A stretch of 64,000 nt of DNA. It comes from Candidatus Thiodiazotropha sp. (ex Myrtea sp. 'scaly one' KF741663). Its GTDB lineage: Bacteria > Pseudomonadota > Gammaproteobacteria > Chromatiales > Chromatiaceae. How positions within the stretch are numbered: position 1 is the stretch's first letter; every line of letters begins with the position of its first letter. This document shows, in pieces, positions 23,072-39,456 of the stretch. The position numbers were made by a program, and so were the translations under genes. A model generated the notes under the pieces. That model saw only the letters and a list, made by a program, of their open reading frames with translations, made no database searches and was not told where the DNA came from. Location: contig JAHXIQ010000004.1 in the NCBI GenBank assembly GCA_025655555.1, positions 310,001 to 374,000 on the forward strand, read 5' to 3'.

Positions 23072-23121
23072 AAAAGTACTGCTATATTTGATGGAGACAG
23101 GTATCACTTTTCGAGGTGCGC

Positions 23122-23750: not shown

Positions 23751-24383
23751 CTAAACTACAGATCGCTGGGTGGAATACTCAGGCAGGGTTTCAGGATTCA
23801 TCCCACTCCAAATGCAATCAATCAGTTCATCGTAGTAATTTGTCAGCGGTTCCTTGATGACACCGTCGAGGCGTAGATGGATCATGCGGATAGCCCCACC
23901 AAACACAGTGGCAGCCGCTATCCAGGGTTCTCCCTGGCGAATTTCGCCGGCCTGTATTCCTTGTTGCACGATATTTCGCATGGCCTTAAAGGGGCTTGAA
24001 CTGCAGATCGGCGGTTCGTCAGGCAGGAACTCCCGATGTTTCGCATGCAGCATGTAGGAGATGATATTTCGCCTTGTCTCCGTGTATTCGAACAGCAGTG
24101 CGATGATTTTATTGCAGCGTTCCCGGCTGGTCAGATCTTCAGAAATGACCTCATCGATCATCTCCTCAAACTCTTTCATCAGATGGTAATAGAGCGCCTT
24201 TGCGATGCCCTCCTTGCCGCCGAAGTGGTTGTAAATAGAGCCAATGCTCACATTGGCGGATTTTTGTACGTCATGTACCGACACATTGTGAAACCCCCTC
24301 TCCACGAATAGGTCGAGGGCCGCAGTCAGGATGCGGCAATCGACGGGTTCCTTTTCCGGCGTGCTCTTCTTCAGATACGGCAT
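23751..24383 (-). CDS. TetR-family repressor of the methanethiol/C1 region
   Basis: A 210-residue TetR regulator. The N-terminal HTH reads ILTAALDLFVERGFHNVSVHDVQKSANVSIGSIYNHFGGKEGIAKALY, with a helical ligand domain behind it. It is divergent from mtoX. A dyad (24448-24465) lies about 65 bases upstream of its start and in the -35/-10 spacer of the mtoX promoter; closely related dyads occupy the same place in promoters at 29262 and 34913. This makes it the probable repressor of the mtoX, tlpA-like and formate dehydrogenase transcripts and of itself. The ligand is unknown; methanethiol, formaldehyde or a glutathione adduct are guesses. Confidence 0.9.
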   Translation of the reverse strand: MPYLKKSTPEKEPVDCRILTAALDLFVERGFHNVSVHDVQKSANVSIGSIYNHFGGKEGIAKALYYHLMKEFEEMIDEVISEDLTSRERCNKIIALLFEYTETRRNIISYMLHAKHREFLPDEPPICSSSPFKAMRNIVQQGIQAGEIRQGEPWIAAATVFGGAIRMIHLRLDGVIKEPLTNYYDELIDCIWSGMNPETLPEYSTQRSVV

Positions 24384-24441
24384 GGGGGCTCCTAAAGCGG
24401 GTGATCAATGGCTTGAGATTATACATAGCATAGTAAAAAAT

Positions 24442-24470
24442 TTGACAAGAATGAACATTCGTTCTACTTT
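24442..24470 (+). promoter_or_regulatory. mtoX promoter with embedded TetR-type operator
   Basis: TTGACA (24442-24447), a 17-base spacer and TACTTT (24465-24470). The spacer is almost filled by the dyad AGAATGAACATTCGTTCT (24448-24465), so repressor and polymerase would compete directly. The start codon is about 43 bases further down. Confidence 0.8.
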
Positions 24471-24512
24471 TTTTCTACCAGTGAGCAAAAATCACCTTTG
24501 GAGGAGATAACG

Positions 24513-25901
24513 ATGAGGCTATTCAAATACAAGCCCGCAAAACCCGCTGTTATGGCATCTGCCATCGCATTCACCATGACCCTGTTTGGTGCGGTACTAC
24601 CCGCTCAGGCCGATGAGACATGCCAGTCGCCGTATATGGCGAAAATCACCGGACAGGAGGATTTTGTCTATGTCTGGACCCTCGGTGTCGAGGGGCTGGG
24701 TGACGGACAAGATAAATTGGTGACCGTCGACGTCAACCCGAAATCGAGCCACTACGGCAAAGTCGTAGATTCTCTGTCGGTCGGGGGGCGTAATGAGGCA
24801 CACCACTCAGGATTTACCGATGACAGGAAGTATCTGTGGGCAGGTGGACTCGATACCAACAAGCTCTTCATCTTTGATGTCGCGACAAATCCGGCAAAGC
24901 CGACGCTGCATAAAGTCGTCACAGACTTCGTCGAGAAGAGCGGTGGCGTGGTGGGGCCTCACACTACCTATGCACTGCCGGGAAGAATCATGATTACCGG
25001 TCTTTCCAACAATAAAGACCATGGGGGACGCACAGCGTTGGTGGAGTACACCAACGAGGGTGAATATGTGGCAACTCACTGGATGCCGACCGACCAGAAT
25101 CTGCAGGGCGCCGAAAAAGCGGGTAAGTATGCGGATGGTTACAACTATGACGTGCGCGTGTTGCCACGCAGAAATGTGATGCTGACATCATCGTTCACCG
25201 GCTGGTCCAACTACATGATGGACTTCGGCAAGATGTTGCAGGACAAGGAGGCGATGAAGCGCTTCGGTAATACGGTGGTGTTGTGGGATCTGCACAGCAA
25301 GAAACCGAAAAAGGTCTTCGATGTCCCCGGTGCGCCTTTGGAGATACGTTGCGCCTGGCAGCCCAATAACAACTGGTGTATTACCTCCACTGCGCTGACA
25401 TCCAAACTGCATCTGATCTACGAAGATGATAATGGCGTGTGGCAGGCCAAGGCAGTGGCGGATATCGGTGATCCCTCCAAGGTGCCGCTGCCCGTGGATA
25501 TCTCCATCAGCTCTGATGATAGCCGCCTCTGGGTCAATACCTTCATGGACGGTAAGACCCGTCTGTTCGACATGACCGATCCTCACAACCCCAAGCAGGT
25601 TTATGAAAAGGTCATCGGACGCCAAGTCAATATGGCCTCTTCAAGTTGGGATAGCACGCGTATCTACTATACTTCCTCGTTGCTGGCCAACTGGGACAAG
25701 AAGGGTGAAGACAACGAGCAGTACCTAAAGAGCTTTGTCTGGGATGGAGAGAAGCTGGTTGAGCAGTTCGCGATCGACTTCAATAAGGAGAAACTCGGTC
25801 GGGCTCACCAGATGCGCTTTGGCGCCTACTCACTCTATGGTGCGGTCAGGCCCGAGAACAGTGCAGTCTCAGTGGCTAATCTGGAACCTATCAACAAGTA
25901 A
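24513..25901 (+). CDS. mtoX: Secreted SBP56-family methanethiol oxidase
   Basis: ATG 24513 follows GGAGGAGATAACG; the product has 462 residues with a signal peptide (cleavage after PAQA, residue 33), so it acts in the periplasm. It is a full-length selenium-binding-protein-56 beta-propeller: GGRNEAHHSGF, HTTYALPGRIMITGLSN, DGYNYDVRVLPRRNVMLTSSFTGWSNY, PLEIRCAWQPN, PVDISISSDDSRLWVNTF and GRAHQMRFG. Bacterial SBP56 enzymes oxidise methanethiol to formaldehyde, H2S and H2O2 and need copper. Neighbouring SCO and MauG genes, as seen around known mtoX genes, and the formaldehyde/formate genes downstream make this function very likely. Confidence 0.92.
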   Translation: MRLFKYKPAKPAVMASAIAFTMTLFGAVLPAQADETCQSPYMAKITGQEDFVYVWTLGVEGLGDGQDKLVTVDVNPKSSHYGKVVDSLSVGGRNEAHHSGFTDDRKYLWAGGLDTNKLFIFDVATNPAKPTLHKVVTDFVEKSGGVVGPHTTYALPGRIMITGLSNNKDHGGRTALVEYTNEGEYVATHWMPTDQNLQGAEKAGKYADGYNYDVRVLPRRNVMLTSSFTGWSNYMMDFGKMLQDKEAMKRFGNTVVLWDLHSKKPKKVFDVPGAPLEIRCAWQPNNNWCITSTALTSKLHLIYEDDNGVWQAKAVADIGDPSKVPLPVDISISSDDSRLWVNTFMDGKTRLFDMTDPHNPKQVYEKVIGRQVNMASSSWDSTRIYYTSSLLANWDKKGEDNEQYLKSFVWDGEKLVEQFAIDFNKEKLGRAHQMRFGAYSLYGAVRPENSAVSVANLEPINK

Positions 25902-25906
25902 CAAAC

Positions 25907-25969
25907 TGCAACTCCGGATATCGAATCGACATCCGGAGTTGCAACCCCGGTATAGCCTTAGACCGGGGT
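25907..25969 (+). other. Two tandem hairpins between mtoX and the SCO-MauG gene
   Basis: Hairpin 1: 13-bp perfect stem TGCAACTCCGGAT/ATCCGGAGTTGCA (25907-25943). Hairpin 2: 8-bp stem ACCCCGGT/ACCGGGGT (25944-25969), directly abutting. No T-tract follows either, so they are more likely an mRNA-stabilising or processing element that sets mtoX output above its downstream genes than a full terminator. Confidence 0.75.
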
Positions 25970-25988
25970 CGATGGATCCGGAGTGCTT

Positions 25989-27947
25989 ATGCGTGACTTG
26001 CTGGTTCGGTGCCTTTTTCTTTTAACTGTGCTGGTCCCGGTCGTATCAGCCGATACGCCCAGCCTAATCGTTGACTCGGCTCCGGGATATGGTGAGCTGG
26101 GCTATGAGTTACCCGACATCGGTAGCTACAACCTGCCATCACTGGGGCAGGCGACAGACGGTATGGTGCTGGATACACAGGGAAGAAAGCAGCATCTCTT
26201 TAATCTCTTTGGCAGTGACTATGTACTGCTGGCATTTATCTACAGTACCTGTAGCGATGTGAACGGCTGTCCGTTGACATCTCATGTGTTTTATAAAATC
26301 AAATCTGCGATGAAGCAGGATCAGGCACTGGCGGGTAACTTAAAGCTGATCAGTTTGAGCTTCGATCCTGAGATCGATACGCCTGAGGTGATGACGCTGT
26401 ATAGCAATAATTTTCGCTACGCAGGCAATGCGGGTGATTGGCGATTTATCACAACGGCATCACAAACAGACTTAAATCCGATTCTCGCAGCCTACAACCA
26501 GGATATTCAGCGTGAGGTGGATAGCGAAGGTAACCCGCTGGTTGGCTATAGCCATGTATTGAGAGTTTTTCTCATTGATCCTGAAAAGCAGATACGCAAT
26601 ATTTACAGTGTCGATTTTCTTCATCACGATCTCATTATCAACGATGTAAAGACATTGCTGAAACAGAGTGAAGATCAAGTAACGAATATCAAAACCGTAG
26701 CGAATACCCCCCAGGCATCGAAACTATCTGTGCCTGGTGACGATAAGCGGGGCTATGAGCAGTCGACATATAAAACAAACTCGCTGGCACTGGAGTTAAG
26801 GCAGGGAAAAGCTGCAGATCTGATTTCTAATGCAATGAATCCGCCATTGGGATTACCTTCGGTACCTGTACCGGAAAATAATCCGTTGAGCAGGGAGAAA
26901 ATCGAGCTTGGCAGAAAACTGTTTTTCGATCGCAGGCTTTCCCTTAACGATACCTTTTCATGTGCCATGTGCCATGTGCCGGAACAGGGATTTACCAGTA
27001 ATGAACTCGCCATGGCAGTCGGTATCGAGGGGCGCAGTGTGAGACGTAACTCGCCGACTATCTACAACACAGCCTATGCACAGTTGCTGTTTCATGATGG
27101 GCGTGAGGAGAATCTCGAGCAGCAAGTTTGGGGACCGCTCCTGGCAAGAAATGAGATGGCCAACCCGTCTGTTGGATATGTCTTGAGCAAGATTCGCCAG
27201 ATCGACGATTATCAAGGGATGTTCGAGGCTGCCTTCGACGGTAGAAGTGTCAGTATGGAAACACTGGGAATGGCCCTCGCCAGCTATCAACGGACATTGG
27301 TTTCCGCAGATTCGGCTTTCGATCGATGGTATTTCAGTGGCAAAACCGATTCAATTTCCGAAGCCGCTCATCGGGGGTTTAAACTTTTTACCGGTAAAGC
27401 CGGATGCTCCTCATGCCATACCCTGGGGGAGAAGTCGGCACTGTTTACCGATAATCAGTTACACAATACCGGTGTCGGTTATCTCGAATCGATGGGTATT
27501 TTTCCTGAGAAGCAAACGGTTCAGATTGCACCAGGTATTACTATCGATGTGGATCGCTCTGTTATTGAACGTGTGGGTGAGAAGCCGCCGAACGACGTGG
27601 GACGGTACGAAGTCACGCAAAACCCCTATGACCGCTGGAAATATAAGACACCAAGTCTGCGTAATGTGGCATTAACTGCACCCTATATGCACAACGGTTC
27701 GCTGAGCACGCTCAGTGATGTGGTTGATTTTTACGATGCTGGCGGTGTGCCCAATGAGTTACAGGATCCGCTTGTAAGGCCTCTGAATCTCAGCAAAATA
27801 GAGAAAGAGGATCTGGTGAGTTTCCTGATATCGCTAACAGGTAGTAATGTCGATGCCTTAGTCGCGGATGCTTTTGACGCTCCAATTGGTGATATCGGCA
27901 AGGGTGACCCGAGCTGGGTACATGGTACTGAGGTAGAGGTCCGCTGA
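25989..27947 (+). CDS. Fusion of SCO/SenC copper-chaperone domain with di-haem MauG/cytochrome c peroxidase domain
   Basis: I place the start at ATG 25989 with GGAG upstream (GTG 25983 also possible): 652 residues with a signal peptide (about 1-21). Residues about 45-225 are a SCO/thioredoxin-like domain, but the copper motif is STC-SDVNG-C (Cys88 and Cys94, five residues apart instead of three) with His189 in GYSHVL. Residues about 285-620 are a MauG/CCP domain with haem motifs CAMCH (325-329) and CSSCH (473-477), ELGRKLFFDRRLS and APYMHNGSL. It may mature MtoX or consume its H2O2. Its stop directly abuts the next gene. Confidence 0.9.
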   Translation: MRDLLVRCLFLLTVLVPVVSADTPSLIVDSAPGYGELGYELPDIGSYNLPSLGQATDGMVLDTQGRKQHLFNLFGSDYVLLAFIYSTCSDVNGCPLTSHVFYKIKSAMKQDQALAGNLKLISLSFDPEIDTPEVMTLYSNNFRYAGNAGDWRFITTASQTDLNPILAAYNQDIQREVDSEGNPLVGYSHVLRVFLIDPEKQIRNIYSVDFLHHDLIINDVKTLLKQSEDQVTNIKTVANTPQASKLSVPGDDKRGYEQSTYKTNSLALELRQGKAADLISNAMNPPLGLPSVPVPENNPLSREKIELGRKLFFDRRLSLNDTFSCAMCHVPEQGFTSNELAMAVGIEGRSVRRNSPTIYNTAYAQLLFHDGREENLEQQVWGPLLARNEMANPSVGYVLSKIRQIDDYQGMFEAAFDGRSVSMETLGMALASYQRTLVSADSAFDRWYFSGKTDSISEAAHRGFKLFTGKAGCSSCHTLGEKSALFTDNQLHNTGVGYLESMGIFPEKQTVQIAPGITIDVDRSVIERVGEKPPNDVGRYEVTQNPYDRWKYKTPSLRNVALTAPYMHNGSLSTLSDVVDFYDAGGVPNELQDPLVRPLNLSKIEKEDLVSFLISLTGSNVDALVADAFDAPIGDIGKGDPSWVHGTEVEVR

Positions 27948-28514
27948 ATGGAGAGATGGCAAACTAAAACGTTAGCTTCCCTGTTGCTCTTCTCGATTTG
28001 GATAGGTGCCTGCTATGCACGGGCAGCAGATCTGGGCGGCGATTTCATGTTAACCGATCAGCGTGGGGATGACTTCAAACTGGAGCAGCTACGGGGCAAG
28101 GTGGTGTTGCTCTTTTTCGGCTATACCTACTGTCCCGATATCTGTCCCACTGAGCTGTCGAATCTGGCGTCTGTCCTGAATGCACTGGATGAGCGGGAAG
28201 AGGAAGTTCGCGGTGTGTTTATTTCATTGGATCCTGAACGGGATACGCCAGAAGTGTTGTTGAACTACACACGCTATTTCAATGAAAATCTACTGGGCCT
28301 GACAGGCTCTCAATCTGAGATTGCCAGGGTGGCACAACAGTATCAGGTTAAGTTCAAACGTCATGAGTTAGCGGATAGTCGCTACACACTGGATCATTCC
28401 GCCAATCTTTATGTCATAGACCGGACTGGACAACTCACGACGGTAGTCCCTTATGGTTTCCCACCTGAGCATGTTTTGAACGTGGTTAAAGATCTGCTCG
28501 ATAACGGGGGCTGA
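27948..28514 (+). CDS. SCO1/SenC-type copper chaperone
   Basis: A 188-residue exported protein: hydrophobic signal or anchor (LASLLLFSIWIGACYARA), then a thioredoxin-like fold with the classical copper site GYTYCPDICP (Cys62, Cys66) and His150 (LDHSANLY). SCO proteins deliver copper or reduce target thiols in the periplasm. The start abuts the stop of the SCO-MauG fusion (TGAATG), so the two are translated together. With MtoX being a copper protein in this family, delivery of copper to MtoX is more likely than to a terminal oxidase, none of which is encoded here. Confidence 0.92.
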   Translation: MERWQTKTLASLLLFSIWIGACYARAADLGGDFMLTDQRGDDFKLEQLRGKVVLLFFGYTYCPDICPTELSNLASVLNALDEREEEVRGVFISLDPERDTPEVLLNYTRYFNENLLGLTGSQSEIARVAQQYQVKFKRHELADSRYTLDHSANLYVIDRTGQLTTVVPYGFPPEHVLNVVKDLLDNGG

Positions 28515-28523
28515 GTACTGTTC

Positions 28524-29252
28524 ATGAAAGGTGTCAATCCAGAGAACGGTCCTGCGTATCAAGATGATGACAGAGAAGTGGATCTCCATGCCGATATGAC
28601 AATGGTGGTGCATGTCGATACAACAAGCATGGAGTGGGCGGCTTCTCCTGCTCAGGGTGTTGCACGTAAGCGGTTGGAATTAATCGGTGATGCTGAACCT
28701 CAATTGACGACGCTGGTACGCTTCCAACCTGGCAGTTGCTTTTCTGAGCATACCCATGATGGGGGTGAAGAGTTCCTTGTACTTGAAGGCGTCTTTTCTG
28801 ACGAGACCGGGGACTATGGTCCGGGGAGTTATATCCGCAATCCACCCGGTACAAGGCATGCGCCTTTCACCGACAAAGGCTGCACTATTCTGGTTAAGCT
28901 GAGACAGTTTCAATCTGGTGATCAGCGACAGTGTGTTACAGACAGCCAGGGCTATGAGACAAACGCATGGTCAACACTAACCCAAGGTATTGCATCCCTC
29001 CTGTTGCATGAGTACGGGGATGAGAAGATATCCCTATTGCGAATGGAGACTGATACCTCTCTACCCAAAGCACTCTATCCTCACGGATTGGAGTTTTATG
29101 TCATTGAGGGGGAGTTGTTGGTCGGTGAAGTCATCGCTGTTCAGGGTTATTGGTTGAGGCTACCGCCTGACGTTGGACTGGAGGTAAAAAGCCGGAAGAA
29201 ATGCCTCTGTTACCTCAAACAGGGTCCCATTGGGCGTTACCGGGATAAATAA
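28524..29252 (+). CDS. ChrR-like cupin protein
   Basis: A 242-residue cytosolic protein with two cupin-like halves. The first matches the ChrR cupin domain: TLVRFQPGSCFSEHTHDGGEEFLVLEGVFSDETGDYGPGSYIRNPPGTRH, with metal ligands His76, His78, Glu82 or 83 and His112. The second half (LLHEYGDEKISLLRMETD ... LEFYVIEGELLVGE) lacks these ligands. ChrR cupins act as anti-sigma sensors, but no ZAS domain or sigma factor is present here, so an enzyme or binding role is possible. It lies 9 bases after the SCO gene and is the last gene before the second operator-bearing promoter. Confidence 0.85.
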   Translation: MKGVNPENGPAYQDDDREVDLHADMTMVVHVDTTSMEWAASPAQGVARKRLELIGDAEPQLTTLVRFQPGSCFSEHTHDGGEEFLVLEGVFSDETGDYGPGSYIRNPPGTRHAPFTDKGCTILVKLRQFQSGDQRQCVTDSQGYETNAWSTLTQGIASLLLHEYGDEKISLLRMETDTSLPKALYPHGLEFYVIEGELLVGEVIAVQGYWLRLPPDVGLEVKSRKKCLCYLKQGPIGRYRDK

Positions 29253-29261
29253 CGCCGGCAA

Positions 29262-29290
29262 TTGACAAAAATGAACATTCATTCTATTGT
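29262..29290 (+). promoter_or_regulatory. Promoter of the TlpA-like gene with embedded TetR-type operator
   Basis: TTGACA (29262-29267), 17 bases, TATTGT (29285-29290). The dyad core AATGAACATTCATT (29270-29283) sits at the same offset from -35 as in the mtoX promoter. Confidence 0.8.
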
Positions 29291-29374
29291 TTGTTGCATA
29301 TATTGTTTTGCCATGAGGGACGTTTAATCAATGGGGTGAGGCGTGGTGACTACGGTGAGAGCGCTGTTCTTTTT

Positions 29375-29923
29375 ATGTTGATGCAGAAAAAAATCCCATA
29401 CCCGGTCATCGTCGGGCTGTTGCTCCTCATGTTGATAGTCTCGTGGCAGGTCTGCGCCAGAGACAGGATGACCCCCATCCCAAGGCCGGCACCAGTACCG
29501 CCGTTTCATCTGCGGGATCTGAATGAGACTTTTCACCATCTTTCCGATTACAGAGGCAGGGTGGTTATCGTCAATTTCTGGGCGAGCTGGTGTGGACCCT
29601 GTCGTGAAGAGTTGCCGTCATTGAATCGTGCCTGGGCAGCTCTGAAAGAGGAGGGCATTGCCATGCTGGCTATCAACGTGGGTGAGGACAAAGAGGCGGT
29701 TGAAGCATTCATCGAGGATTATCCTATCGACTTTCCTGTACTTCAGGACAGTCATGGAAATATCAGTCAACGCTGGCGAGTGAGGGGATTGCCTGCCACT
29801 TTTGTGATTAATCAGAGAGGTGAGGCAGTTTACCAGGTCATTGGTGATCGCGAATGGGATGACAGTGCACTGTTACAACAGGTGAGAGAACTACAGAAAG
29901 TAGTAGTAAGACATGGACCCTAA
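29375..29923 (+). CDS. Membrane-anchored TlpA/ResA-type thioredoxin
   Basis: The open frame reaches back to 29291, but the promoter's -10 ends at 29290, so I choose ATG 29375 (or 29381). The 182-residue product has an N-terminal anchor (PYPVIVGLLLLMLIVSW) and a periplasmic thioredoxin domain with redox site WASWCGPC (Cys73, Cys76), EELPSLNRAW and the cis-Pro GLPATFV. TlpA-type proteins keep copper chaperones or apocytochromes reduced. Here it could reduce the SCO proteins or cytochrome cysteines upstream. It is under the same operator as mtoX. Confidence 0.88.
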   Translation: MLMQKKIPYPVIVGLLLLMLIVSWQVCARDRMTPIPRPAPVPPFHLRDLNETFHHLSDYRGRVVIVNFWASWCGPCREELPSLNRAWAALKEEGIAMLAINVGEDKEAVEAFIEDYPIDFPVLQDSHGNISQRWRVRGLPATFVINQRGEAVYQVIGDREWDDSALLQQVRELQKVVVRHGP

Positions 29924-29946
29924 AACAACATGGGTGATTGGTATAT

Positions 29947-30372
29947 ATGCTAATGATCGAATATAGAGACCTGGGTTGGTGGTATTGGTTGGTGACTGCT
30001 GTATTGCTAACGCTGGGGGTGTTTGGAGTCGGTGAGGCGTTTTTGTGGGCCATCGCTCTGACGCTGGTACAGCTTATTCATTTTGCTTTGCGGGAAGGGA
30101 GTGTGAAAGCCTTTCCGGTACAAGTACGGTTCTGGTATTTGATGTTGCTTCTACTGGCACTGCCACAGCCGCTGCAACTGATTTTCTGGATCCCGACTAT
30201 CGGTACTTGGGCGCAGTTGATCTTTGGTTACTGCACCATGGCCAGACTGGTCTCACTCTTTCCCTGGAACAGAGAAGAAATAATGAGCTGGCAACTGATA
30301 CAACGAACTTTTTTCTCTCCACCTGTGCGGGGGAATATCTTGCAGGGATTACCACCTGTTACGAGGGTGTGA
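29947..30372 (+). CDS. Unknown four-helix membrane protein of the methanethiol region
   Basis: ATG 29947 (or 29953) gives about 141 residues; an in-frame TTG at 29938 is possible. The N-terminus reads MLMIEYRDLGWWYWLVTAVLLTLGVFGVGEAF, then three more hydrophobic segments (FLWAIALTLVQLIHFAL, FWYLMLLLLALPQPLQLIFW and GTWAQLIFGYCTMARLVSLF) and a polar tail with FPWNR and SPPVRGNIL. No cofactor motif is evident. It follows the TlpA-like gene by 23 bases and is probably in the same transcript. I do not recognise a family; membrane position among SCO, MauG and TlpA suggests a role in maturation or electron transfer for MtoX (inference). Confidence 0.75.
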   Translation: MLMIEYRDLGWWYWLVTAVLLTLGVFGVGEAFLWAIALTLVQLIHFALREGSVKAFPVQVRFWYLMLLLLALPQPLQLIFWIPTIGTWAQLIFGYCTMARLVSLFPWNREEIMSWQLIQRTFFSPPVRGNILQGLPPVTRV

Positions 30373-30514
30373 GGCTGTTCCGGCAAAGCATTAGATATAC
30401 ATTCTGAGTAAAAAATGTAGTACCGATAATCATTGGTCTGGGTGTGATGGCGCACGTCTCATGCTGGACTGTTAATCAAAAAATAATCGACAGAAACTGA
30501 TTGGAGAAAACGAC

Positions 30515-31624
30515 ATGAAGGCAAAAGCCGCAGTAGCCTGGGAGCCAAAGAAACCCCTTTCCATAGAGACTATTGACGTGGAAGGACCCAAGGAGGGCGA
30601 AGTCCTTCTGAAGGTGATCGCGTCCGGTGTCTGCCACACTGATGCTTTTACTCTTTCCGGCGATGATCCGGAGGGTGCATTCCCCTGTGTACTGGGGCAT
30701 GAAGGGGGGTGTGAGGTCGTTGAATGCGGTCCCGGTGTGAAAGATCTGAAGCCGGGCGACCATGTCATACCACTCTATATCCCTGAATGTGGCGAGTGTG
30801 AGTATTGCCAATCGACCAAGACCAATCTTTGCCAATCTATTGCAGGCACCGTGTGGACCGGCTACATGCCGGATAGCACCCGTCGTTTCTCAATGAATGG
30901 CAAACCGATTTATCACTACATGGGTTGCTCAACTTTCTCTGAATATACCGTTGTGCCGGAGATTGCATTGGCCAAAGTGAACAAGGCGGCGCCGCTGGAT
31001 AAGGTCTGTCTGCTGGGCTGTGGTGTGACCACCGGCATCGGTGCAGTACTCAATACGGCTAAAGTGGAACCTGGCGCCACTGTCGCGGTCTTTGGTTTGG
31101 GCGGTATCGGTTTGTCATGCATTCAGGGTGCGGTGATGGCCAAGGCCTCCCGCATCATTGCTGTGGATATCAATCCCGACAAATGGGAGATCGCCAAGGC
31201 GTTAGGCGCCACAGATTTTGTTAACCCCAAGGCTCTCCCCGGCAGTGTCACTGAGGCGATTACCGAGATGACCAACGGCGGTGTCGACTACTCCTTCGAG
31301 TGTATCGGCAACATTCACGTCATGCGTGAGGCGCTCGAATGCTGCCACATGGGCTGGGGCGTCTCCACCATCATCGGTGTTGCCGGTGCGGGACAGGAGA
31401 TCAGTACCCGCCCATTCCAGCTGGTGACCGGCCGCACCTGGAAAGGTACTGCCTTTGGTGGTGTCAAAGGGCGTAGCGAGTTGCCGGGTTATGTGGACCG
31501 TTATCTGAACGGTGAAATCGAACTCGACTCCATGGTTACCCACACCATGCCGCTGGAGGATATTAACCGGGCCTTCGACCTGATGCATAGCGGTGAGAGC
31601 ATTCGCTCAGTAATCATTTTCTGA
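30515..31624 (+). CDS. adhC: S-(hydroxymethyl)glutathione dehydrogenase (class III ADH)
   Basis: A 369-residue zinc enzyme that oxidises the spontaneous formaldehyde-glutathione adduct to S-formylglutathione with NAD. Catalytic zinc ligands are Cys40 (SGVCHTD), His62 (GHEGG) and the Cys in LLGCGVTTG. Structural zinc ligands are Cys92, 95, 98 and 106. The NAD loop is [20 protein letters not shown] and the C-terminal SIRSVIIF are class III marks. RBS GGAG before ATG 30515. It directly precedes fghA. An inverted repeat TACATT-N10-AATGTA at 30398-30419 upstream differs from the TetR operator. Confidence 0.97.
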
Positions 31625-31633
31625 GTGAGACCT

Positions 31634-32470
31634 ATGAAACAGATAGAAAGCATCAAAGAGTTCGGCGGCTTGCTCAACCGCTATGAGCACAGTTCAGCGG
31701 TCTGCCATTGCACCATGACATTTTCTGTCTATCTGCCGCCCAAGGCAGAGACGGAAAAGGTCCCGGCGGTTTACTGGCTCTCCGGGTTGACCTGTACCGA
31801 TGACAATGTACGCACCAAGGCTGGTGCGCAGCGTTATGCTGCAGAACTGGGTATCGCCCTGATCATGCCGGACACCAGTCCCCGTGGTGACGAGGTGGCG
31901 GACGAATCCGAGCGTTATGACTTGGGCAAGGGTGCCGGATTCTATGTCAATGCCACCCAGGCACCTTGGGCTGCACACTACCAGATGTATGATTACGTAA
32001 CCCGGGAACTACCCGCGTTGGTTGAGGCGGTGTTGCCGTTGGTTCCCGGACTGAAATCTATTACGGGCCACTCTATGGGTGGACATGGTGCATTGGTTTG
32101 TGCACTCAAAGAGACAGGTGCCTATCGATCCGTATCCGCTTTTTCACCTATCTGCCATCCCTCGGTCTGTGGTTGGGGTGAGGGCTGCTTCAGTACCTAT
32201 CTCGGTAGCGACCGGGAAACCTGGAAGGCTTATGACGCCACTGAATTGGTCAAGGCAGGCGCTGCTGAGATTCCACTGCTGATCGATCAGGGCACAAACG
32301 ACGAGTTTCTGGCCGAACAACTCTATCCGCAGGACCTGCAAACGGCCTGTGAAGCGCGGGGATTTCCGCTCACGCTGCGTCGGCAGGAAGGATACGACCA
32401 CAGTTATCACTTCATTGCCACGTTTATTGGTGAGCATCTGGCTTATCACGCGAAAGCACTGTCGGATTGA
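31634..32470 (+). CDS. fghA: S-formylglutathione hydrolase
   Basis: A 278-residue serine esterase that releases formate and glutathione from S-formylglutathione. The catalytic triad is Ser147 (GHSMGGHG), Asp223 (DQGTNDEF) and His256 (GYDHSYHF). The esterase D N-terminus (VYWLSGLTCTDDN) and DTSPRGDEV loop are intact. I prefer ATG 31634 with GAGTGAG upstream over in-frame GTG 31625, which directly follows the adhC stop. Adjacent to adhC, it is the second step of GSH-dependent formaldehyde oxidation and feeds formate to the dehydrogenase at 35162. Confidence 0.97.
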   Translation: MKQIESIKEFGGLLNRYEHSSAVCHCTMTFSVYLPPKAETEKVPAVYWLSGLTCTDDNVRTKAGAQRYAAELGIALIMPDTSPRGDEVADESERYDLGKGAGFYVNATQAPWAAHYQMYDYVTRELPALVEAVLPLVPGLKSITGHSMGGHGALVCALKETGAYRSVSAFSPICHPSVCGWGEGCFSTYLGSDRETWKAYDATELVKAGAAEIPLLIDQGTNDEFLAEQLYPQDLQTACEARGFPLTLRRQEGYDHSYHFIATFIGEHLAYHAKALSD

Positions 32471-32631
32471 TCCTCATATACCGCAAGCTCCCTTCAGGTC
32501 CTCATGATGGCTGTCCTCCATAGCCATAGAGGGCCATTTTTTTGAGGCGAGTGGCACATGATCCTGTTGCCGGTGATTTGTATGGGTCCATGTGAAGACG
32601 ATAATTATTTTGAAAGAAAAGAGGTATTGAA

Positions 32632-33138
32632 ATGAAATTCACCTATAGGGTTTTCTGGTTTGTATTGGTGATAATGGGCGCAATGACGTTTCTGCCTGCG
32701 TCGGCAGATGAGGCGATTAATGACGCTGCTGCACTAAATGGTGTCAAAGCCACAAAAAGTGTTTTTCTGATCGATTTTACCAACCCGAGAAAAACAGCCT
32801 TTTACATGGATATCATCCGTGGGACTCATGATGGTTTGGTTAATCAGGGCGTATCGCCAAATATGGTATTGGTGTTTATCGGCCAAACAGTTAAATATCT
32901 CTCCACTGAACCCGATGAACTTTTAGCCATGGAGTATGAGCAGGAGTTGAAGTCGATTGCCGAATCGGCAAAGGCACTCAAACAGCGTGGGGTTCGAATG
33001 GAGGTTTGTGCCGTCGCAACGAAGGTGTTTGAGGTGGAGAATGCCAAGGTATTACCCGAAATGGATGTGGTTGGCGACGGTTTTATCTCTCTTATCGGTT
33101 GGCAGACACAAGGTCATAAGCTGGTGCCGATTTTTTAG
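32632..33138 (+). CDS. Exported DsrE/DsrF-like protein
   Basis: A 168-residue protein with a signal peptide (YRVFWFVLVIMGAMTFLPASA/DEA) and a DsrE-like alpha/beta domain: SVFLIDFTNPRKTAFYMDIIRGTHDGLVNQG and VRMEVCAVATKVF, where the Cys lies at the position of the persulfide-carrying Cys in DsrE-type proteins. Periplasmic DsrE homologues are common in sulfur oxidisers. Close to mtoX, it may bind or relay sulfide-derived sulfur from methanethiol oxidation (inference). RBS AAGAGGTATTG. It ends convergent with gshA. Confidence 0.82.
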   Translation: MKFTYRVFWFVLVIMGAMTFLPASADEAINDAAALNGVKATKSVFLIDFTNPRKTAFYMDIIRGTHDGLVNQGVSPNMVLVFIGQTVKYLSTEPDELLAMEYEQELKSIAESAKALKQRGVRMEVCAVATKVFEVENAKVLPEMDVVGDGFISLIGWQTQGHKLVPIF

Positions 33139-33170
33139 TGTAATGGGTTCCGGTCGATAAAAGTGCCGGG

Positions 33171-34775
33171 TTAAAAACACTGACTTGAAGCGCAGACACA
33201 GGGTTCACAACCAAAGTAGGGCCGGTCGTTCGTTATCTTTGTTTCATGATCACCATATAGTCCCTCACTTTGACATTCTAAATGTCGTTGCTGACGGAAC
33301 GACTGCCTTGTGAGCGCTTTGTAGTATTCAAAACGGGCCTGGCTCAGACTGCGTGACAGGTAGTGGTCATGATGTGATGCTGAGCGCAGCTGGATAAATC
33401 CGCTGAAACTCTCTCTCTGCTCACGCATGCCGCTGAGAAGTCTAGCGGATGGTGTCAGTTCGGGCTCGCTTAAATATCGTTGGTAGTGCTTTAGTGCGTT
33501 GAGATATTGGTTTGTATTGTGTGCCTTATCCAGGAGTTCTGCTACCGGCTGCATCTGATCGAAAATCTGATTGCCCCATTCGCGAAGGCTGACCTCAATC
33601 CCATTATTATTCAGCTTTAATCCGGATGATCTACCGAAATAGGCTGTCTGGTTCAGGTTATGTCGATTGATATCAGCACTTGAAGGATCGCTGTACGGGC
33701 TTTCGCTAATCAGACAGAAATGAGTGAAGACTTCGAGAAAATGTAATTGAGCAATTTCCACCCCGGTGGGTGTGAATGGATTGACATCAATTGAGCGGAG
33801 TTCAAGATAACGTATGCCTCTTTGTTGCAGCGCCTCAAGTGGAGACTCACCGGAGAGCGGGATCTGCTTGGGACGAACGCTGGTATAGAACTCATTTTCG
33901 ATCTGCAGCAGATGGGTATTGAGTTGCTGGTGAATGCCGTCGATGACAACCCCGATCTCTTCATAAGCCGGATGGGACTTTTTAAGAATACCCTGCATGG
34001 TCGAGAGGTAACCATCGAGCGAGTTGCAGTCGATGTTCATCTGACGACCGGTCTGCAATCGGTTGGTATATCCCATATCACCCATACGCAGCGATGTAGC
34101 ATAGGGCGCGTAGTAGGTCTCTTCGTCGAATCGCTCGAGTCTTTCGCCGGCGCCGGTAAAACTGCGGTCGGTGGTAGGTGAGGCGCCAAAAAGATAGAGC
34201 AGCAGCCAGTCATAACGTTGGACATTTCGTAGTGTGTGCATATAGCCGTCGGCAATGAACAACTGAATCTCTCTGTTATCACCTGAAAGCTTTTGCAGTA
34301 CAGGCCACAGGTCATCGGAGAAGGAGTGGTTGAAGTGAATGCCTGCGATGACCTGCATCATCTTGCCGTAGCGATGCGCAAGACCCCGGCGATAGACCTG
34401 TTTTGACATGCCTGAATCTGAGTGCCCGTAGTTTGCAATTGGGATCTGGTCAGCATTCTCGACGATACAGGGCATACTGGCGGACCAGACCATCTCGTCA
34501 GCCAGGTTCTGATGGACGAAGGTTTCGGTCTCGGTCAGAGAGTGGAGGGCATCCTCTGCGCAGAGAACGGGCGGGGTAATCAGTTCAAGCAGGGCTTCGG
34601 AAAAGTCAGTGGTAATACTCGGGTGTGTCAGGGCAGACCCCAGGGCATAGGGATGCGATGCACCGGAGAGCACGCCATTACGACTGACACGCAGGCCCTC
34701 TTTTTCCAGGCCGATCTTTGAACCGGTGAAGCAATCTACCGGAATCTGGTGGGTGATCGAGGCCATAGTGGTCAT
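33171..34775 (-). CDS. gshA: Glutamate-cysteine ligase (proteobacterial type)
   Basis: A 534-residue enzyme making gamma-glutamylcysteine, the first step of glutathione synthesis. Marks: KIGLEKEGLRVSRNG near the N-terminus, TTDFSEALLELITPP, GIHFNHSF, RNVQRYDWLLLYLFGASP, RMGDMGYTN and GIRYLELRSIDVNPF. The RBS is GGAGCAACATA before ATG 34775. The C-terminus is unusual: Cys523, 526, 528 and 533 within the last 12 residues (GCEPCVCASSQCF). It is convergent with the DsrE gene and divergent from the formate dehydrogenase promoter, so the operator there may also affect it. It supplies the GSH used by AdhC and FghA. Confidence 0.95.
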   Translation of the reverse strand: MTTMASITHQIPVDCFTGSKIGLEKEGLRVSRNGVLSGASHPYALGSALTHPSITTDFSEALLELITPPVLCAEDALHSLTETETFVHQNLADEMVWSASMPCIVENADQIPIANYGHSDSGMSKQVYRRGLAHRYGKMMQVIAGIHFNHSFSDDLWPVLQKLSGDNREIQLFIADGYMHTLRNVQRYDWLLLYLFGASPTTDRSFTGAGERLERFDEETYYAPYATSLRMGDMGYTNRLQTGRQMNIDCNSLDGYLSTMQGILKKSHPAYEEIGVVIDGIHQQLNTHLLQIENEFYTSVRPKQIPLSGESPLEALQQRGIRYLELRSIDVNPFTPTGVEIAQLHFLEVFTHFCLISESPYSDPSSADINRHNLNQTAYFGRSSGLKLNNNGIEVSLREWGNQIFDQMQPVAELLDKAHNTNQYLNALKHYQRYLSEPELTPSARLLSGMREQRESFSGFIQLRSASHHDHYLSRSLSQARFEYYKALTRQSFRQQRHLECQSEGLYGDHETKITNDRPYFGCEPCVCASSQCF

Positions 34776-34912
34776 TATGTTGCTCCGGTCAGCGGTTACT
34801 CGGCGGTCTGTTGATGTCCCAAAATGACAGAGTAATTACTTATTAATCAATTCATTAGATGTTTTTTTCTTGTATTGAACAGGGGCGATGAAAATCCTCA
34901 TTCAGTGTGTAG

Positions 34913-34941
34913 TTGATAATAGAATGAATGTTCATTATATT
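34913..34941 (+). promoter_or_regulatory. Formate dehydrogenase promoter with embedded TetR-type operator
   Basis: TTGATA (34913-34918), 17 bases, TATATT (34936-34941). The dyad core AATGAATGTTCATT (34923-34936) is the exact reverse complement of the core at 29270. It is shifted by two bases relative to -35 compared with the other two promoters. Confidence 0.78.
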
Positions 34942-35123
34942 CAAGTCCATGCTGGGAGAACATTGCCATGCACTCAACCTGCAACAGCCTTACGCGTAAG
35001 AAAACCGGCGAAATGCAGACAATAAGAACAGACAAAGTGCTCGGGTTTTGATTCCATGACTCAGATTATTCTCTGGGTTGTACGCACGGATAGCTGAAAC
35101 GGATCCAGAAAGAACCGAGACCT

Positions 35124-35138
35124 AGGGCCTGTTAACAC
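35124..35138 (+). repeat. Short remnant of the MITE-like terminal repeat
   Basis: AGGGCCTGTTAACAC matches the outermost 15 bases of the element at 57808. Flanking bases do not match. Confidence 0.5.
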
Positions 35139-35161
35139 ACCAAACGCAGTGGGAAGAGGGT

Positions 35162-36763
35162 ATGTCTAAGAATATTCGTATCTTGAGTCGACATCTGGGA
35201 TTGCAGGACAATCTTTTTCATGCGGTTGGCCAGGCCGTATCCAAGGATCGTGCTGAAACTGAGAGGGCCATGGGGAATCTGGCACACAAGGCCAAGCTCT
35301 CGGCCTCGGTGGTAACAGGTACGGCAAGTTTTTATGACTTTCTCAATGAAGAGACGAAACAGAGTGAACTGCTTGTCTGTCAGGGCACTGCCTGCCTGGT
35401 AAACGGTTCAGCCGCGGCGACTGCTGCGCGTCATTCGGGCGCGGGCAAGGCGATGTGCTGTGGACTCTGTTATCAGGGATCGGCCCTGATGAAGCATGAC
35501 ACCGATGGGAACCTGCAGGGTTATCATCAGAGTGAGTCCGTATTGAGTCAGCCGGAGATGCCGGTTTATACCCTCTCTCCTTCGGCGATACTGACGGGGC
35601 CTGTTACCTCCGTAGAGAGGTTGTATGACTTGGCGCTTGAGGGGCAGGAGCGGATTCACCATGAGTTGGCACAATCCAATCTGCGTGGGCGCGGCGGCGC
35701 CGGTTTCGGTTTTGCCTTCAAGTGCAAGACGACTGCAGAGGCTGATGGTGCAGAGAAATATATTGTCTGCAATGGAGACGAGGGAGATCCGGGCGCCTTC
35801 TCAGATCGCTATCTGTTGGAACAGCAACCGCATAAAGTGATGGCGGGGATGTATGCGGCGGGTTTGGCTACCGGTGCCAGGATCGGGGTGCTCTATGTCC
35901 GTTATGAATATCCTGAAGCAATCCGCAGGATCAAGCGTGCCATCGCTGAGTTTGAATCGTTGCCGACTGATATCAGCGGCAAGTTCTCATTTCATGTGAT
36001 CGAGGGTGCCGGGTCTTATGTCTGCGGAGAGGAGACAGCGCTCCTCAGCTCCATCGAGGGTCAGCGGCCGGAGGTGCGCGTGCGGCCGCCCTATCCGGCA
36101 GTAGAGGGTCTTTGGGGCAAGCCGACCCTGCTGTCCAACGTAGAGACCTTTGCCAACATTCCCTGGATACTCGAGCATGGCGGAGAAGCCTTTGCCGCCA
36201 TCGGCACTGGAGAGAGCAAGGGGACCAAACTGATCTCACTGGATAGTCAATTTCATCATCCCGGACTCTATGAAGTTGATTTTGGCTACGCCTTTGAGGA
36301 GTTGATCTACAAGGATGCCGGGGGATTTAACCGTGATGTCAAAGCCCTGCAGGTTGGGGGACCGCTCGGTTCCATCCTGCCGGTTGATGCGATCTCAGGT
36401 CTTAGCATTGACTTCGAATCTTTTCAGCAAGCCGGTTTCGCATTGGGACATGCGGGAATGATTGCCATACCGGCGCCGTTTCCCATGATCGACTTCATGC
36501 GCCATATCTTCGAATACATGGCGGACGAATCCTGCGGTAAGTGCACCCCCTGCCGGCTGGGCACTGCCAAAGGCAGCCGTATGCTGCATCAGGCAACAAA
36601 GGATCATCCCGTGGACAGGCGTCTATTCGACGAGCTGCTCGAACTGTTGGAAGTGGGCTCACTATGCGCATTGGGCGGCGGTGTACCTTTGCCGATGCGC
36701 AATGCATTGACCCATTTTCAGCAAGAGCTTGCGGCTTACTTCAGTCTGGAGGGAGCGGAGTAA
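35162..36763 (+). CDS. fdsB: NAD-linked formate dehydrogenase, fused NuoE-like/NuoF-like subunit
   Basis: A 533-residue diaphorase subunit. Residues 1 to about 125 are NuoE/FdsG-like with a [2Fe-2S] pattern C73-x4-C78 and C99-x3-C103. The rest is NuoF/FdsB-like with FMN/NADH loops RGRGGAGF and CNGDEGDPGAFSDR, GAGSYVCGEETALLSSIEG, and a [4Fe-4S] motif SCGKCTPCRLG plus SLCALG. It passes electrons from the molybdenum subunit to NAD. In Cupriavidus-type enzymes FdsG and FdsB are separate; here they are one chain. The next gene overlaps as TAATG. Transcribed from the operator-bearing promoter at 34913. Confidence 0.93.
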   Translation: MSKNIRILSRHLGLQDNLFHAVGQAVSKDRAETERAMGNLAHKAKLSASVVTGTASFYDFLNEETKQSELLVCQGTACLVNGSAAATAARHSGAGKAMCCGLCYQGSALMKHDTDGNLQGYHQSESVLSQPEMPVYTLSPSAILTGPVTSVERLYDLALEGQERIHHELAQSNLRGRGGAGFGFAFKCKTTAEADGAEKYIVCNGDEGDPGAFSDRYLLEQQPHKVMAGMYAAGLATGARIGVLYVRYEYPEAIRRIKRAIAEFESLPTDISGKFSFHVIEGAGSYVCGEETALLSSIEGQRPEVRVRPPYPAVEGLWGKPTLLSNVETFANIPWILEHGGEAFAAIGTGESKGTKLISLDSQFHHPGLYEVDFGYAFEELIYKDAGGFNRDVKALQVGGPLGSILPVDAISGLSIDFESFQQAGFALGHAGMIAIPAPFPMIDFMRHIFEYMADESCGKCTPCRLGTAKGSRMLHQATKDHPVDRRLFDELLELLEVGSLCALGGGVPLPMRNALTHFQQELAAYFSLEGAE

Positions 36764-39456
36764 TGAGTCAGATAACGATCAATGGGACCACCTATCCGAC
36801 TATAGAGGGTGAGACCCTTTACGAATCTGTCAGCCGTCACCTTGGGCCGGATGAGATTCCCGTACTCTGTCATGATCCAGCACTAGAACCTTTTGGCGCA
36901 TGCCGGATCTGCCTCGTCGAGGTGTCACGAAAAGCGGGAGAAAAGGGGCGTCTGATGGCGTCCTGCCATACGCCGGCCTCTGGTGATCTGCATGTAACCA
37001 CGCGAAGCGATCGCCTGATGCGTGCACGCAAAGGTATTCTCGAGTTGCTGGTGAGTAATTATCCTGCCGATAAAATGAAACCGGCGGCAGGTGAAAACCC
37101 CACGCCCTTTCAGAAACTGCTGCATGAGTACGGGATTGAGCACAGTCGATATCCGCAGATAGAAGAACCGGGAGAAGCTGCCAAGCCCCACCCCTATCTG
37201 CGCTTCGATCCCGCTGAATGTATCCACTGCTATCGTTGCATTCGCGCTTGCGATGAAATACAGGGGCAGTTTGTGCTGTCGATGGCGAATCGCGGTATGA
37301 AAAGCCACATTATCCAGGGACAGGCGGGGGACTTCGGTGAAGCGGGATGTGTCTCCTGCGGACGTTGTGTTCAGACCTGTCCCACCAATGCCCTCAGCGA
37401 TCGCTACCGGGCCAAGACATTGCAGGCTGACAAGACGGTACCCACTGTCTGCACCTACTGTGGTGTGGGTTGCAACCTGGAGGTGAAGGTTAAGGCTGGT
37501 AGCGTGGCGGCTATCAGCGCCGTGGAGGGAGCTGAAGTCAACCAAGGGCATACCTGTCTCAAAGGACGCTACGCTTTTGAGTATGTCCACCACCCCGATC
37601 GGCTCACCAGCCCCATGATCCGCCGTGACGGAGAACTGGTAGAGGTCGGCTGGGATGAGGCGCTCGACTTCATCGCCGAACGTCTCGAGCGCATCAAACA
37701 GGAACATGGCGCCGATGCCATTGCCGGCATCTCTTCGGCACGCTGCACCAATGAAGAGAATTACTTGATGCAGAAGTTCATGCGGAGCGTGATCGGCAAC
37801 AACAATATCGACGGCTGTGCACGGGTCTGCCACTCACCCACTGCCTACGGCATGCGGCAGGTCTATGGAACCGGTGCGGCGACCAACTCCATCGATGAAA
37901 TTCCGCTGGCCGACTGCCTGCTGGTGTTTGGGGCCAATCCCACTGAGGCTCACCCGGTTACCGGGGCCAGGCTGAAACAGGCGGCTATTAAGGGTGCGAA
38001 GCTGATCATCGTTGACCCGCGCCGTTCTGAATTATCGAAATACGCCGCCTGTCATCTGCAGCCAAGACCCGGTAGCAATGTGGCCCTGCTCAACATGCTA
38101 TGCCGTTATCTGATTGCGCTGGATTACGTGGACCAGGCGTTTGTCGACAGCCGGACCGAGGGCTTTGATGCGTTCAAGGTGCAGGTGATGGCACAGGATC
38201 TCGATCGCCTGGAGCAGATAACGGGTGTTGCCCGTACCGATGTGGAACAGGCAGCACATATTTATGGCCGTGCCCAGCGTGCGATGGCCTTTCATGGTTT
38301 GGGTATCACAGAACACTATCAGGGCAGCCGGGCAATCATGATGCTTGCCGATCTGATTATGATGACCGGTAATATCGGTCGCCCCGGTACTGGTATGAAC
38401 CCTCTGCGTGGGCAGAACAACGTACAGGGAGCGGTGGACATGGGTGTTCAACCCGACCTGGGTGCCGGCTACCTCGACTACAAACAACCGGAGATTAAGG
38501 CGCACTTTGAACAAATCTACGGTACAGAGATACCGACACAGCCAGGATTAAAGATACCGCAGATGTTTGGCGCAGCCCGGGAAGGAAAGCTCAAGGCCCT
38601 GTGGATCATGGGCGAGGATATCCTGCAGACCGATCCCAACTCCTGCGAGGTTAAATATTCCCTCAGTCTGCTCGATCTGCTGATCGTGCAGGAGCTCTTC
38701 ATGACAGAGACCTGCAGCATGGCCGATGTCATCCTGCCGGCTGCCTCATTCCTGGAGAAGAGTGGTACCTTCACCAATGGGGAGCGGCGTATCCAGCGAG
38801 TCAATGCAGCCATTGACCCATTGCCAGGTACTCGTCCGGACGGAGAGATTGTCAGTAACATCATGCAGCGTATGGGTTATCCGCAGGGTTCTTATGATCC
38901 GCCGAAGTTGCTTCAGGAGATTGCGCAGGTGGTGCCTTTCTTTGCCGGTGTGACTTGGGAGAATCTTGAAGGGGATGGCAAGCAGTGGCCCGTGGCGCCA
39001 GATGGTACCGACACGCAAATCCTACATCAGGAGGGTTTCAAGCTGCGCAAAGGCCAGTTCCGGTTTTTCGAATTTCAAGAGACCCCCGAAATTGAAGAAA
39101 ATGCCGCATCCTATCCCTACATTCTCACCACCAGTCGCTGCCTGGAACACTATAATTGCGGCAGTATGACCCGCCGCACACCCAATGTGGAACTGGTTGA
39201 TCACGATGTGTTACTGATTAATCCTCAGGATGCCGAACGGGAAGGTATCGATGAGGGGGGGCGTGTAGAGATCTCCTCATCCAACGGGACCACCCATCTA
39301 CAGGTGAGGATCAGTGATGAGGTGAAACCGGGAATACTCTTTACCACCTTCCACTTTCCAGAAATCGCTATCAACCACCTTACCAGCGGTATCTTCGATC
39401 AGGAGAGCATGACGCCGGAGTATAAGGTTGTAGCGGTGCGTTTGGCGCCAGCTTGA
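36763..39456 (+). CDS. fdsA: NAD-linked formate dehydrogenase, molybdenum catalytic subunit
   Basis: A frame open further upstream overlaps the previous gene; the true start is ATG 36763 (MSQITINGTTYPTIEG), giving 897 residues. The N-terminal [2Fe-2S] domain has Cys36, 47, 50 and 68. Two [4Fe-4S] clusters follow (C153-C163 region and CVSCGRCVQTC at 196-206). The MopB domain has its proximal cluster at Cys230, 233, 237 and 265. The molybdenum ligand is Cys356 (ARVCHSPT), so no selenocysteine is used. It oxidises formate to CO2. FdsC/FdsD-like maturation genes are not next to it; modABC lies about 7 kb downstream. Confidence 0.95.
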   Translation: MSQITINGTTYPTIEGETLYESVSRHLGPDEIPVLCHDPALEPFGACRICLVEVSRKAGEKGRLMASCHTPASGDLHVTTRSDRLMRARKGILELLVSNYPADKMKPAAGENPTPFQKLLHEYGIEHSRYPQIEEPGEAAKPHPYLRFDPAECIHCYRCIRACDEIQGQFVLSMANRGMKSHIIQGQAGDFGEAGCVSCGRCVQTCPTNALSDRYRAKTLQADKTVPTVCTYCGVGCNLEVKVKAGSVAAISAVEGAEVNQGHTCLKGRYAFEYVHHPDRLTSPMIRRDGELVEVGWDEALDFIAERLERIKQEHGADAIAGISSARCTNEENYLMQKFMRSVIGNNNIDGCARVCHSPTAYGMRQVYGTGAATNSIDEIPLADCLLVFGANPTEAHPVTGARLKQAAIKGAKLIIVDPRRSELSKYAACHLQPRPGSNVALLNMLCRYLIALDYVDQAFVDSRTEGFDAFKVQVMAQDLDRLEQITGVARTDVEQAAHIYGRAQRAMAFHGLGITEHYQGSRAIMMLADLIMMTGNIGRPGTGMNPLRGQNNVQGAVDMGVQPDLGAGYLDYKQPEIKAHFEQIYGTEIPTQPGLKIPQMFGAAREGKLKALWIMGEDILQTDPNSCEVKYSLSLLDLLIVQELFMTETCSMADVILPAASFLEKSGTFTNGERRIQRVNAAIDPLPGTRPDGEIVSNIMQRMGYPQGSYDPPKLLQEIAQVVPFFAGVTWENLEGDGKQWPVAPDGTDTQILHQEGFKLRKGQFRFFEFQETPEIEENAASYPYILTTSRCLEHYNCGSMTRRTPNVELVDHDVLLINPQDAEREGIDEGGRVEISSSNGTTHLQVRISDEVKPGILFTTFHFPEIAINHLTSGIFDQESMTPEYKVVAVRLAPA

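Follow-up and report, generated by a model that had tools for sequence, protein, structure and literature searches.

A predicted TetR-type regulon joining methanethiol oxidation to formaldehyde clearance in a lucinid clam symbiont

In Hyphomicrobium and Ruegeria pomeroyi, the methanethiol oxidase gene mtoX is followed by genes for SCO and MauG functions (mtoX-SCO1/senC-mauG; PMC5739008), and mto-clusters 1 and 2 of Methylophaga thiooxydans are arranged as mtoX, an SCO1/MauG fusion and an SCO/TlpA-like protein (PMC6548844). Both the mtoX-SCO-mauG core and the SCO-MauG fusion are already known from these papers. The same core was identified within positions 23751-39456 of a 64-kb window (the whole stretch of DNA analyzed) in the 3.98-Mb genome of a Candidatus Thiodiazotropha, a bacterial symbiont of lucinid clams. 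Here a gene for a predicted TetR-family repressor is divergent from mtoX, and adhC, fghA, dsrE, a second gshA (gshA2) and formate dehydrogenase genes are located beyond the core (Table 1). The R. pomeroyi cluster differs in having an IclR-type neighbour, and the sections of the paper that deal with it mention no formaldehyde, formate or glutathione genes (PMC5739008). The M. thiooxydans clusters are described as continuing with persulfide dioxygenase, sulfide-quinone oxidoreductase and sulfate transport genes instead of adhC, fghA, gshA and fdh, formaldehyde being processed by folate or methanopterin routes (PMC6548844).

The FrmR-frmAB system of E. coli likewise couples AdhC/FghA-type formaldehyde clearance to a dedicated repressor; however, FrmR is described as a CsoR/RcnR-type (DUF156) regulator, whereas the regulator in the window belongs to the TetR family and its predicted targets also include mtoX, gshA2 and fdh (PMC4776306, PMC8879981). 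The formaldehyde regulators tabulated in a review are FlhRS, HxlR, TtmR, AdhR, FrmR, RamAB and GlxR, and no TetR-named entry appears in that table (PMC8879981). Our literature search for TetR-type formaldehyde regulators returned nothing relevant, and searches for Thiodiazotropha with methanethiol and for methanethiol with the TetR family and mtoX returned no paper. Published accounts of one-carbon metabolism in these symbionts centre on methanol and formate (PMC6712303, PMC11171427). Within the reach of our searches, what is new here is the predicted TetR regulon, its two-way operator between fdh and gshA2, its dedicated gshA2 and its link to dsrE.

Operators and promoters in the window and the genus

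Three dyads were detected by repeat search (24448-24466, 29268-29286 and 34921-34939). When the whole genome was searched with AATGAACATTCRTTCT at two mismatches or fewer, these three dyads were the only matches, and the reversed pattern gave none. The near-identical dyads in three promoters reported in an earlier note on this stretch are thus real and exclusive genome-wide at this threshold, and a chance repeat was ruled out by genome-wide searches with reversed controls. The single TetR-type operator proposed in the same note gives way to three operators and at least four promoters.

A sigma-70-like promoter (TTGAxx/TAxxxT) surrounds each dyad, whose 16-19 bp fill the 17-bp spacer exactly between the -35 and -10 boxes. 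The third has a promoter on either strand, facing fdhB and gshA2, and would therefore serve gshA2 as well as formate dehydrogenase. Since both faces are promoter-like, a third operator driving formate dehydrogenase alone, or gshA alone, was rejected. The region as a whole showed no surplus of promoter-like matches (13, with 15.8 expected from shuffles), therefore the argument rests on the exact overlap of dyad and promoter and on its conservation. Among 95 distinct sites with at most one mismatch, taken from 93 chosen loci plus the window, 76 satisfied a loose promoter rule on either strand, compared with 12% of random places at the same breadth. When the spacing was fixed and a single strand considered, the rule held in 64 of 105 strand-wise contexts, compared with 0.7% of random places.

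We surveyed 22 Thiodiazotropha genomes including that of the window (G000). The TetR orthologue, the operator and mtoX occurred together in the same 19 genomes, the orthologue of G011 being split in two pieces, and all three were missing from G006, G014 and G017. The operator was located in the mtoX locus of every one of the 19 genomes. There were 60 operator strand-hits against 2 for the reversed pattern. Merging the strands left 45 sites, distributed over mtoX (19), tlpA (13), dsrE (7), gshA2 (5) and one unrelated place (G008:C336), so that 44 of the 45 are at these four genes by our own tally. Conservation of regulator and operator with mtoX in relatives, on which the earlier note had staked its proposal, thus holds in the genus (19/19). 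Second mtoX copies in G004, G015, G019 and G020 have no operator match nearby.

The operator is linked to formate dehydrogenase, gshA and dsrE in relatives as well, in agreement with what the earlier note had read from the window. In G000, G018 and G013, both gshA2 and fdhB adjoin the third site and both promoter faces are intact. In L038 (the same stretch as in G030) and L230 (G083) fdhB alone adjoins it; the face TTGAAA-17-TATATT is intact and the gshA-side face is degraded (ATGAAT, CCGAAT). In G003 and G001 gshA2 is alone, and TTGAAA-17-TATTAT is kept on the gshA2 side only. These seven sequences were drawn from few related lineages and are therefore not independent. The gshA2 gene was identified in exactly five of the 22 genomes, which are the five with adhC above the cut-off, and the operator lies upstream on its strand in all five. 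This match is strong but does not represent five independent events, because the five genomes belong to two groups, each closely related. All 22 genomes have a further gshA copy (at G000:C7:122819 in that of the window). The contiguity of the gene set holds in the window and is not general. In G013, gshA2 is located about 17 kb from mtoX; in G003 it is far from mtoX on a different contig; in G001 it is also on a different contig, both contigs being short, so that the two genes may yet be linked. The dsrE gene, with its own operator, is on a contig other than that of mtoX in G002, G007, G008, G010, G012 and G016.

A predicted formaldehyde-response regulon

We consider it rather probable that the TetR protein is at root a formaldehyde-response repressor and that MtoX was recruited into its regulon. 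Formaldehyde or its glutathione adduct is the most likely inducer, and not methanethiol, because formaldehyde is what mtoX, adhC-fghA, GFA-family genes, a methanol-type dehydrogenase, fdh and gshA2 have in common. In the simplest reading, the repressor would sit on the dyad across the spacer between the -35 and -10 boxes and so repress four promoters (24442, 29262 and both faces of 34913-34944), and induction would release all four together. MtoX in the periplasm, after maturation by the SCO and MauG proteins, would then convert methanethiol to formaldehyde and reduced or sulfane sulfur. TlpA and the exported DsrE protein may deal with periplasmic thiols and sulfur, the cupin and the membrane protein may have roles as well, and GshA2 would raise glutathione. 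AdhC and FghA would carry formaldehyde to formate, and formate dehydrogenase would yield CO2 and NADH. Of the MtoX products named in the earlier note, H2S and H2O2 are disputed, sulfane sulfur and water having been reported instead (PMC10936201).

We propose that inducible glutathione supply is part of the regulon in some species. This fits the organism of the window, in which, of two formaldehyde routes, only that through glutathione was found. The other is the methanopterin route, which has been described in Ctena orbiculata symbionts (PMC6712303). Its entry enzyme Fae is missing from G000, G018 and G013 and present in G001 and G003. A strict exclusion between the two routes was rejected, since three of the five adhC genomes lack Fae, two have it, and four mtoX genomes have neither.

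We offer the full combination tentatively: a TetR-family formaldehyde sensor that would govern the whole path from methanethiol to CO2, and an inducible glutathione-making enzyme of its own, through spacer-filling dyads and one two-way operator. Through one DNA site, formaldehyde clearance and glutathione supply would be tied to the degradation of a volatile sulfur compound. If formaldehyde is the inducer, a regulator family would be added to formaldehyde sensing, and the operator could serve as a marker for finding further one-carbon genes.

TetR relatives outside the genus and the choice of inducer

The closest TetR proteins in named records, from symbionts of the lucinid Monitilora ramsayi, are 95% and 91% identical. 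The TetR search returned 80 loci, among which 51 (L035-L085) are close relatives with 47-95% identity; the other 29 were short helix-turn-helix matches, mostly from Actinomycetes, and were excluded. The operator was found at two mismatches or fewer in 43 of the 51 loci, and L078 and L083 have sites with three mismatches. In one set of loci mtoX lies divergently to the TetR gene, and in another set (Thiothrix, Leucothrix, Granulosicoccaceae and others) adhC-fghA takes that place. Whole-genome searches covered 36 TetR-bearing genomes outside the genus, of unstated completeness, and listed 57 operator matches against 9 for the reversed pattern. An mtoX match was present in 13 of them (12 above the cut-off) and absent from 23. 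In 15 of these 23, adhC or fghA follows the operator at the TetR locus (L051, L059, L061, L063, L065, L068, L069, L072, L074, L075, L076, L077, L079, L082 and, with three mismatches, L083). Isolates among the 15 belong to Thiothrix, Granulosicoccaceae and Leucothrix arctica, the site of L. arctica having three mismatches. The remaining eight are L053, L054, L057, L058, L064, L066, L070 and L071.

Other targets were also identified. The operator is followed by adhC-fghA-fdhB-fdhA in L215, and by a GFA-family gene, a cupin and formate dehydrogenase in L217. In L080 it lies ahead of a dehydrogenase of the pyrroloquinoline quinone (PQQ) methanol/ethanol family; the same genome has a second TetR with adhC-fghA (L213), and its mtoX is elsewhere and without operator. 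L058 holds TetR, operator and PQQ dehydrogenase in one neighbourhood. The 95 sites were assigned to mtoX (23), adhC/fghA (19), tlpA (15), dsrE (7), gshA (5, three of them shared with fdhB), fdhB (2 more), GFA-family genes (4), arsenite oxidase (2), methanol-type dehydrogenase (1), the TetR gene only (4) and RND pumps (4). This tally is a description and not an enrichment test, since the loci were fetched through TetR or operator matches. In a genome that also has an adhC-type locus, a well-formed operator-promoter at L214:8282 precedes a FIST-domain gene by 311 bp.

A family sample of 146 genomes (TetR relatives at E <=1e-30) contained 22 with a TetR relative, 32 with an operator match and 15 with both; the reversed control gave 5 hits. 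Where the TetR was at least 55% identical, the operator was matched in 15 of 16 genomes; where there was only a 41-49% relative, it was matched in none of six. Among the 17 genomes with an operator match and no such TetR, five were examined: four have RND pumps (G053, G078, G106 and G248), and G083 is a fragmented genome holding regulon genes.

The recognition region (VSIGSIYNHFGGKEG) is nearly invariant in 52 orthologues. Cys90 is present in 48 of them, Cys127 in 43 and Cys16 in 39; Pro2 and Cys16 occur together in 38, and Cys16 or Cys90 in all 52. In FrmR the trigger is a methylene bridge between Pro2 and Cys35 (PMC8879981), and by analogy Pro2 with Cys16, or Cys90, could serve in sensing. 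In a quick tree the 52 orthologues were on one side and the four TetRs of RND pumps on the other. Within it the mtoX and adhC labels are intermingled, and well-supported branches force a minimum of four and of three changes.

Several observations weigh against the proposed regulon, among them the arsenite oxidase targets, the FadR-like fold and the dyads at RND pumps described below. At 11 mtoX loci scanned outside the genus, the operator was found in three (L007, L011 and L023) and not in six (L005, L006, L021, L024, L025 and L034); L022 and L033 end at a contig end. Six TetR loci (L053, L054, L055, L057, L062 and L070) have no operator at three mismatches or fewer. Nine of the 95 sites have no assigned target, and the operator match is not at a regulon gene in two of the 15 family genomes with both elements (G081 and G114). 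In the genus, 14 genomes have TetR and mtoX and no adhC above the cut-off; Fae is present in ten of these, and G002, G007, G008 and G016 have neither. Induction of a methanol dehydrogenase by formaldehyde would be positive feedback.

A TetR that senses methanethiol, or its sulfane-sulfur product, with adhC, fghA, fdh and gshA2 as downstream clearance only, would agree with the co-occurrence of TetR, operator and mtoX in the genus and with a regulon that includes the possible sulfur handlers DsrE and TlpA. Ruegeria mtoX, which adjoins an IclR-type gene, is reported to be methanethiol-induced (PMC5739008). However, we regard such a sensor as unlikely, given the 23 TetR-bearing genomes without mtoX, the 15 among them with the operator before adhC or fghA, the interleaved labels in the TetR tree, and the GFA-family and methanol dehydrogenase targets. 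The methanethiol-specific switch of the earlier note is likewise not supported: TetR and operator alike stand before adhC-fghA in many genomes where no mtoX was found.

The operator is followed by arsenite oxidase genes in L064 (by profile) and L066 (by similarity to L064), and this, together with Cys16 or Cys90 in every orthologue and Cys90 in nearly all, would suit a broad cysteine-based thiol or electrophile sensor that responds to formaldehyde, arsenite and others, and thus a stress response and not a one-carbon switch. We know of no link of arsenite oxidase to formaldehyde. In both loci (L064:888-6750 and L066:9810-16420), arsenite oxidase and a GFA-family gene lie behind two operator copies, beside a TetR relative of 61% identity. 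However, few identified targets fall outside one-carbon or methanethiol genes and neither cysteine is universal, so that a general sensor of this kind seems improbable to us.

The AlphaFold model of the TetR protein (predicted local distance difference test, pLDDT, 90.6) has Bacillus FadR, another TetR-family protein, as its nearest solved fold (PDB 3whb, 3whc and 1vi0), and FadR gives the best sequence matches too, one of the FadR structures having stearoyl-CoA bound. A thioester ligand is therefore conceivable, and the TetR protein might bind an acyl-CoA or acyl-thioester, with the one-carbon genes following a metabolic signal such as a pathway thioester. The Bacillus FadR operator, we assume, has a similar 7-4-7 form, for which our literature search gave no confirmation. 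However, identity is 23-27% in the best four FadR rows, the TetR protein scores 46.2 bits against an NCBIfam FadR cut-off of 200, FadR has a fatty-acid regulon, and no fatty-acid gene was found among the identified targets (nine sites being unassigned). We hold a FadR-like ligand to be quite improbable.

Near-identical dyads also lie beside RND pumps and diverged TetRs (31-42% identity) in L224, L225, L226 and L231, thus the motif is not unique to the predicted regulator of mtoX; that the dyads belong to another regulator, for instance such AcrR-like TetRs, is nevertheless very improbable, as the spacer-in-promoter layout occurs in none of the four pump sites, the operator tracks the divergent TetR in 19/19 genus genomes and is missing from the three without it, and in the family it was matched in 15 of the 16 genomes with the closer TetR.

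A close TetR relative in Sedimenticola (L055, with the same open reading frame (ORF) layout in L057 and L062) is located downstream of S-adenosylhomocysteinase and methylenetetrahydrofolate reductase genes. Candidate operators in these three genomes were discarded, being single one-mismatch matches not at regulon genes.

Gene identities and minor features of the locus

Gene identities were assigned by Pfam and NCBIfam/TIGRFAM profile searches, using equivalog cut-offs where given. The genes named in the earlier note were all found in place, by profile except for the 144-aa protein.

Table 1. Predicted genes and promoter-operators of the locus (window positions; aa, amino acids)
Feature	Position	Strand	Evidence
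TetR-family repressor, 210 aa	23751..24383	-	Pfam TetR_N 56.8 bits, TetR_C_10 29.1; divergent from mtoX
Promoter-operator 1, towards mtoX	24442..24470	+	TTGACA - 17-bp dyad - TACTTT
mtoX, methanethiol oxidase (SBP56)	24513..25901	+	NF052453 788.8 bits, cut-off 650; signal-peptide-like start
SCO1-MauG fusion	25983..27947	+	SCO domain 76-203, di-haem peroxidase domain 305-452, two CxxCH
SCO1/SenC protein	27948..28514	+	Pfam 158.8 bits
ChrR-type cupin protein	28524..29252	+	Cupin_7 134 bits
Promoter-operator 2, towards tlpA-mem-adhC-fghA	29262..29290	+	TTGACA - 17-bp dyad - TATTGT
TlpA-type thioredoxin (WCGPC)	29375..29923	+	profile; longest ORF begins 29291
mem, 144-aa membrane-like protein	29938..30372	+	no Pfam family
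adhC, glutathione-dependent formaldehyde dehydrogenase	30515..31624	+	TIGR02818 663.1 bits, cut-off 543.95
fghA, S-formylglutathione hydrolase	31625..32470	+	TIGR02821 410.2 bits, cut-off 281.7
DsrE-family protein, exported-looking	32632..33138	+	Pfam DsrE 42.1 bits; signal-peptide-like start
gshA2, second glutamate-cysteine ligase	33171..34775	-	PF04262 473.7 bits
Promoter-operator 3, two-way	34913..34944	both	+ TTGATA-17-TATATT to fdhB; - TTGAAT-17-TATTAT to gshA2
fdhB, NuoF-like subunit, NAD-type formate dehydrogenase	35162..36763	+	profile
fdhA, molybdopterin formate dehydrogenase, NuoG-like N-terminus	36763..39456	+	profile; longest ORF begins 36541

TetR_N scored above its Pfam cut-off. 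MtoX is above the curated equivalog cut-off, with SCO and MauG genes co-located, and histidines, including a His-His pair at 97-98, are present on reading its sequence. The AdhC and FghA equivalogs are both above cut-off and together make up the glutathione-dependent formaldehyde oxidation pathway. The longest mtoX ORF begins at 24498, and the start at 24513 was chosen by reading the sequence; tlpA probably starts at ATG 29375 rather than TTG 29291. The 144-aa protein gave no Pfam match at E 0.001 and is retained in L035, L036, L039 and L040. No + strand terminator was listed between mem and adhC. A strong hairpin of 20 pairs (25904-25947) lies between mtoX and the SCO-MauG gene and perhaps sets the ratio of their mRNAs. 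A cytochrome P460 gene and a MarR-type regulator (22384-22863 and 23116-23691) adjoin the TetR gene. The pair is retained in G018 and G013, and a copy with 48-51% identity is located beside the adhC-type locus L063.

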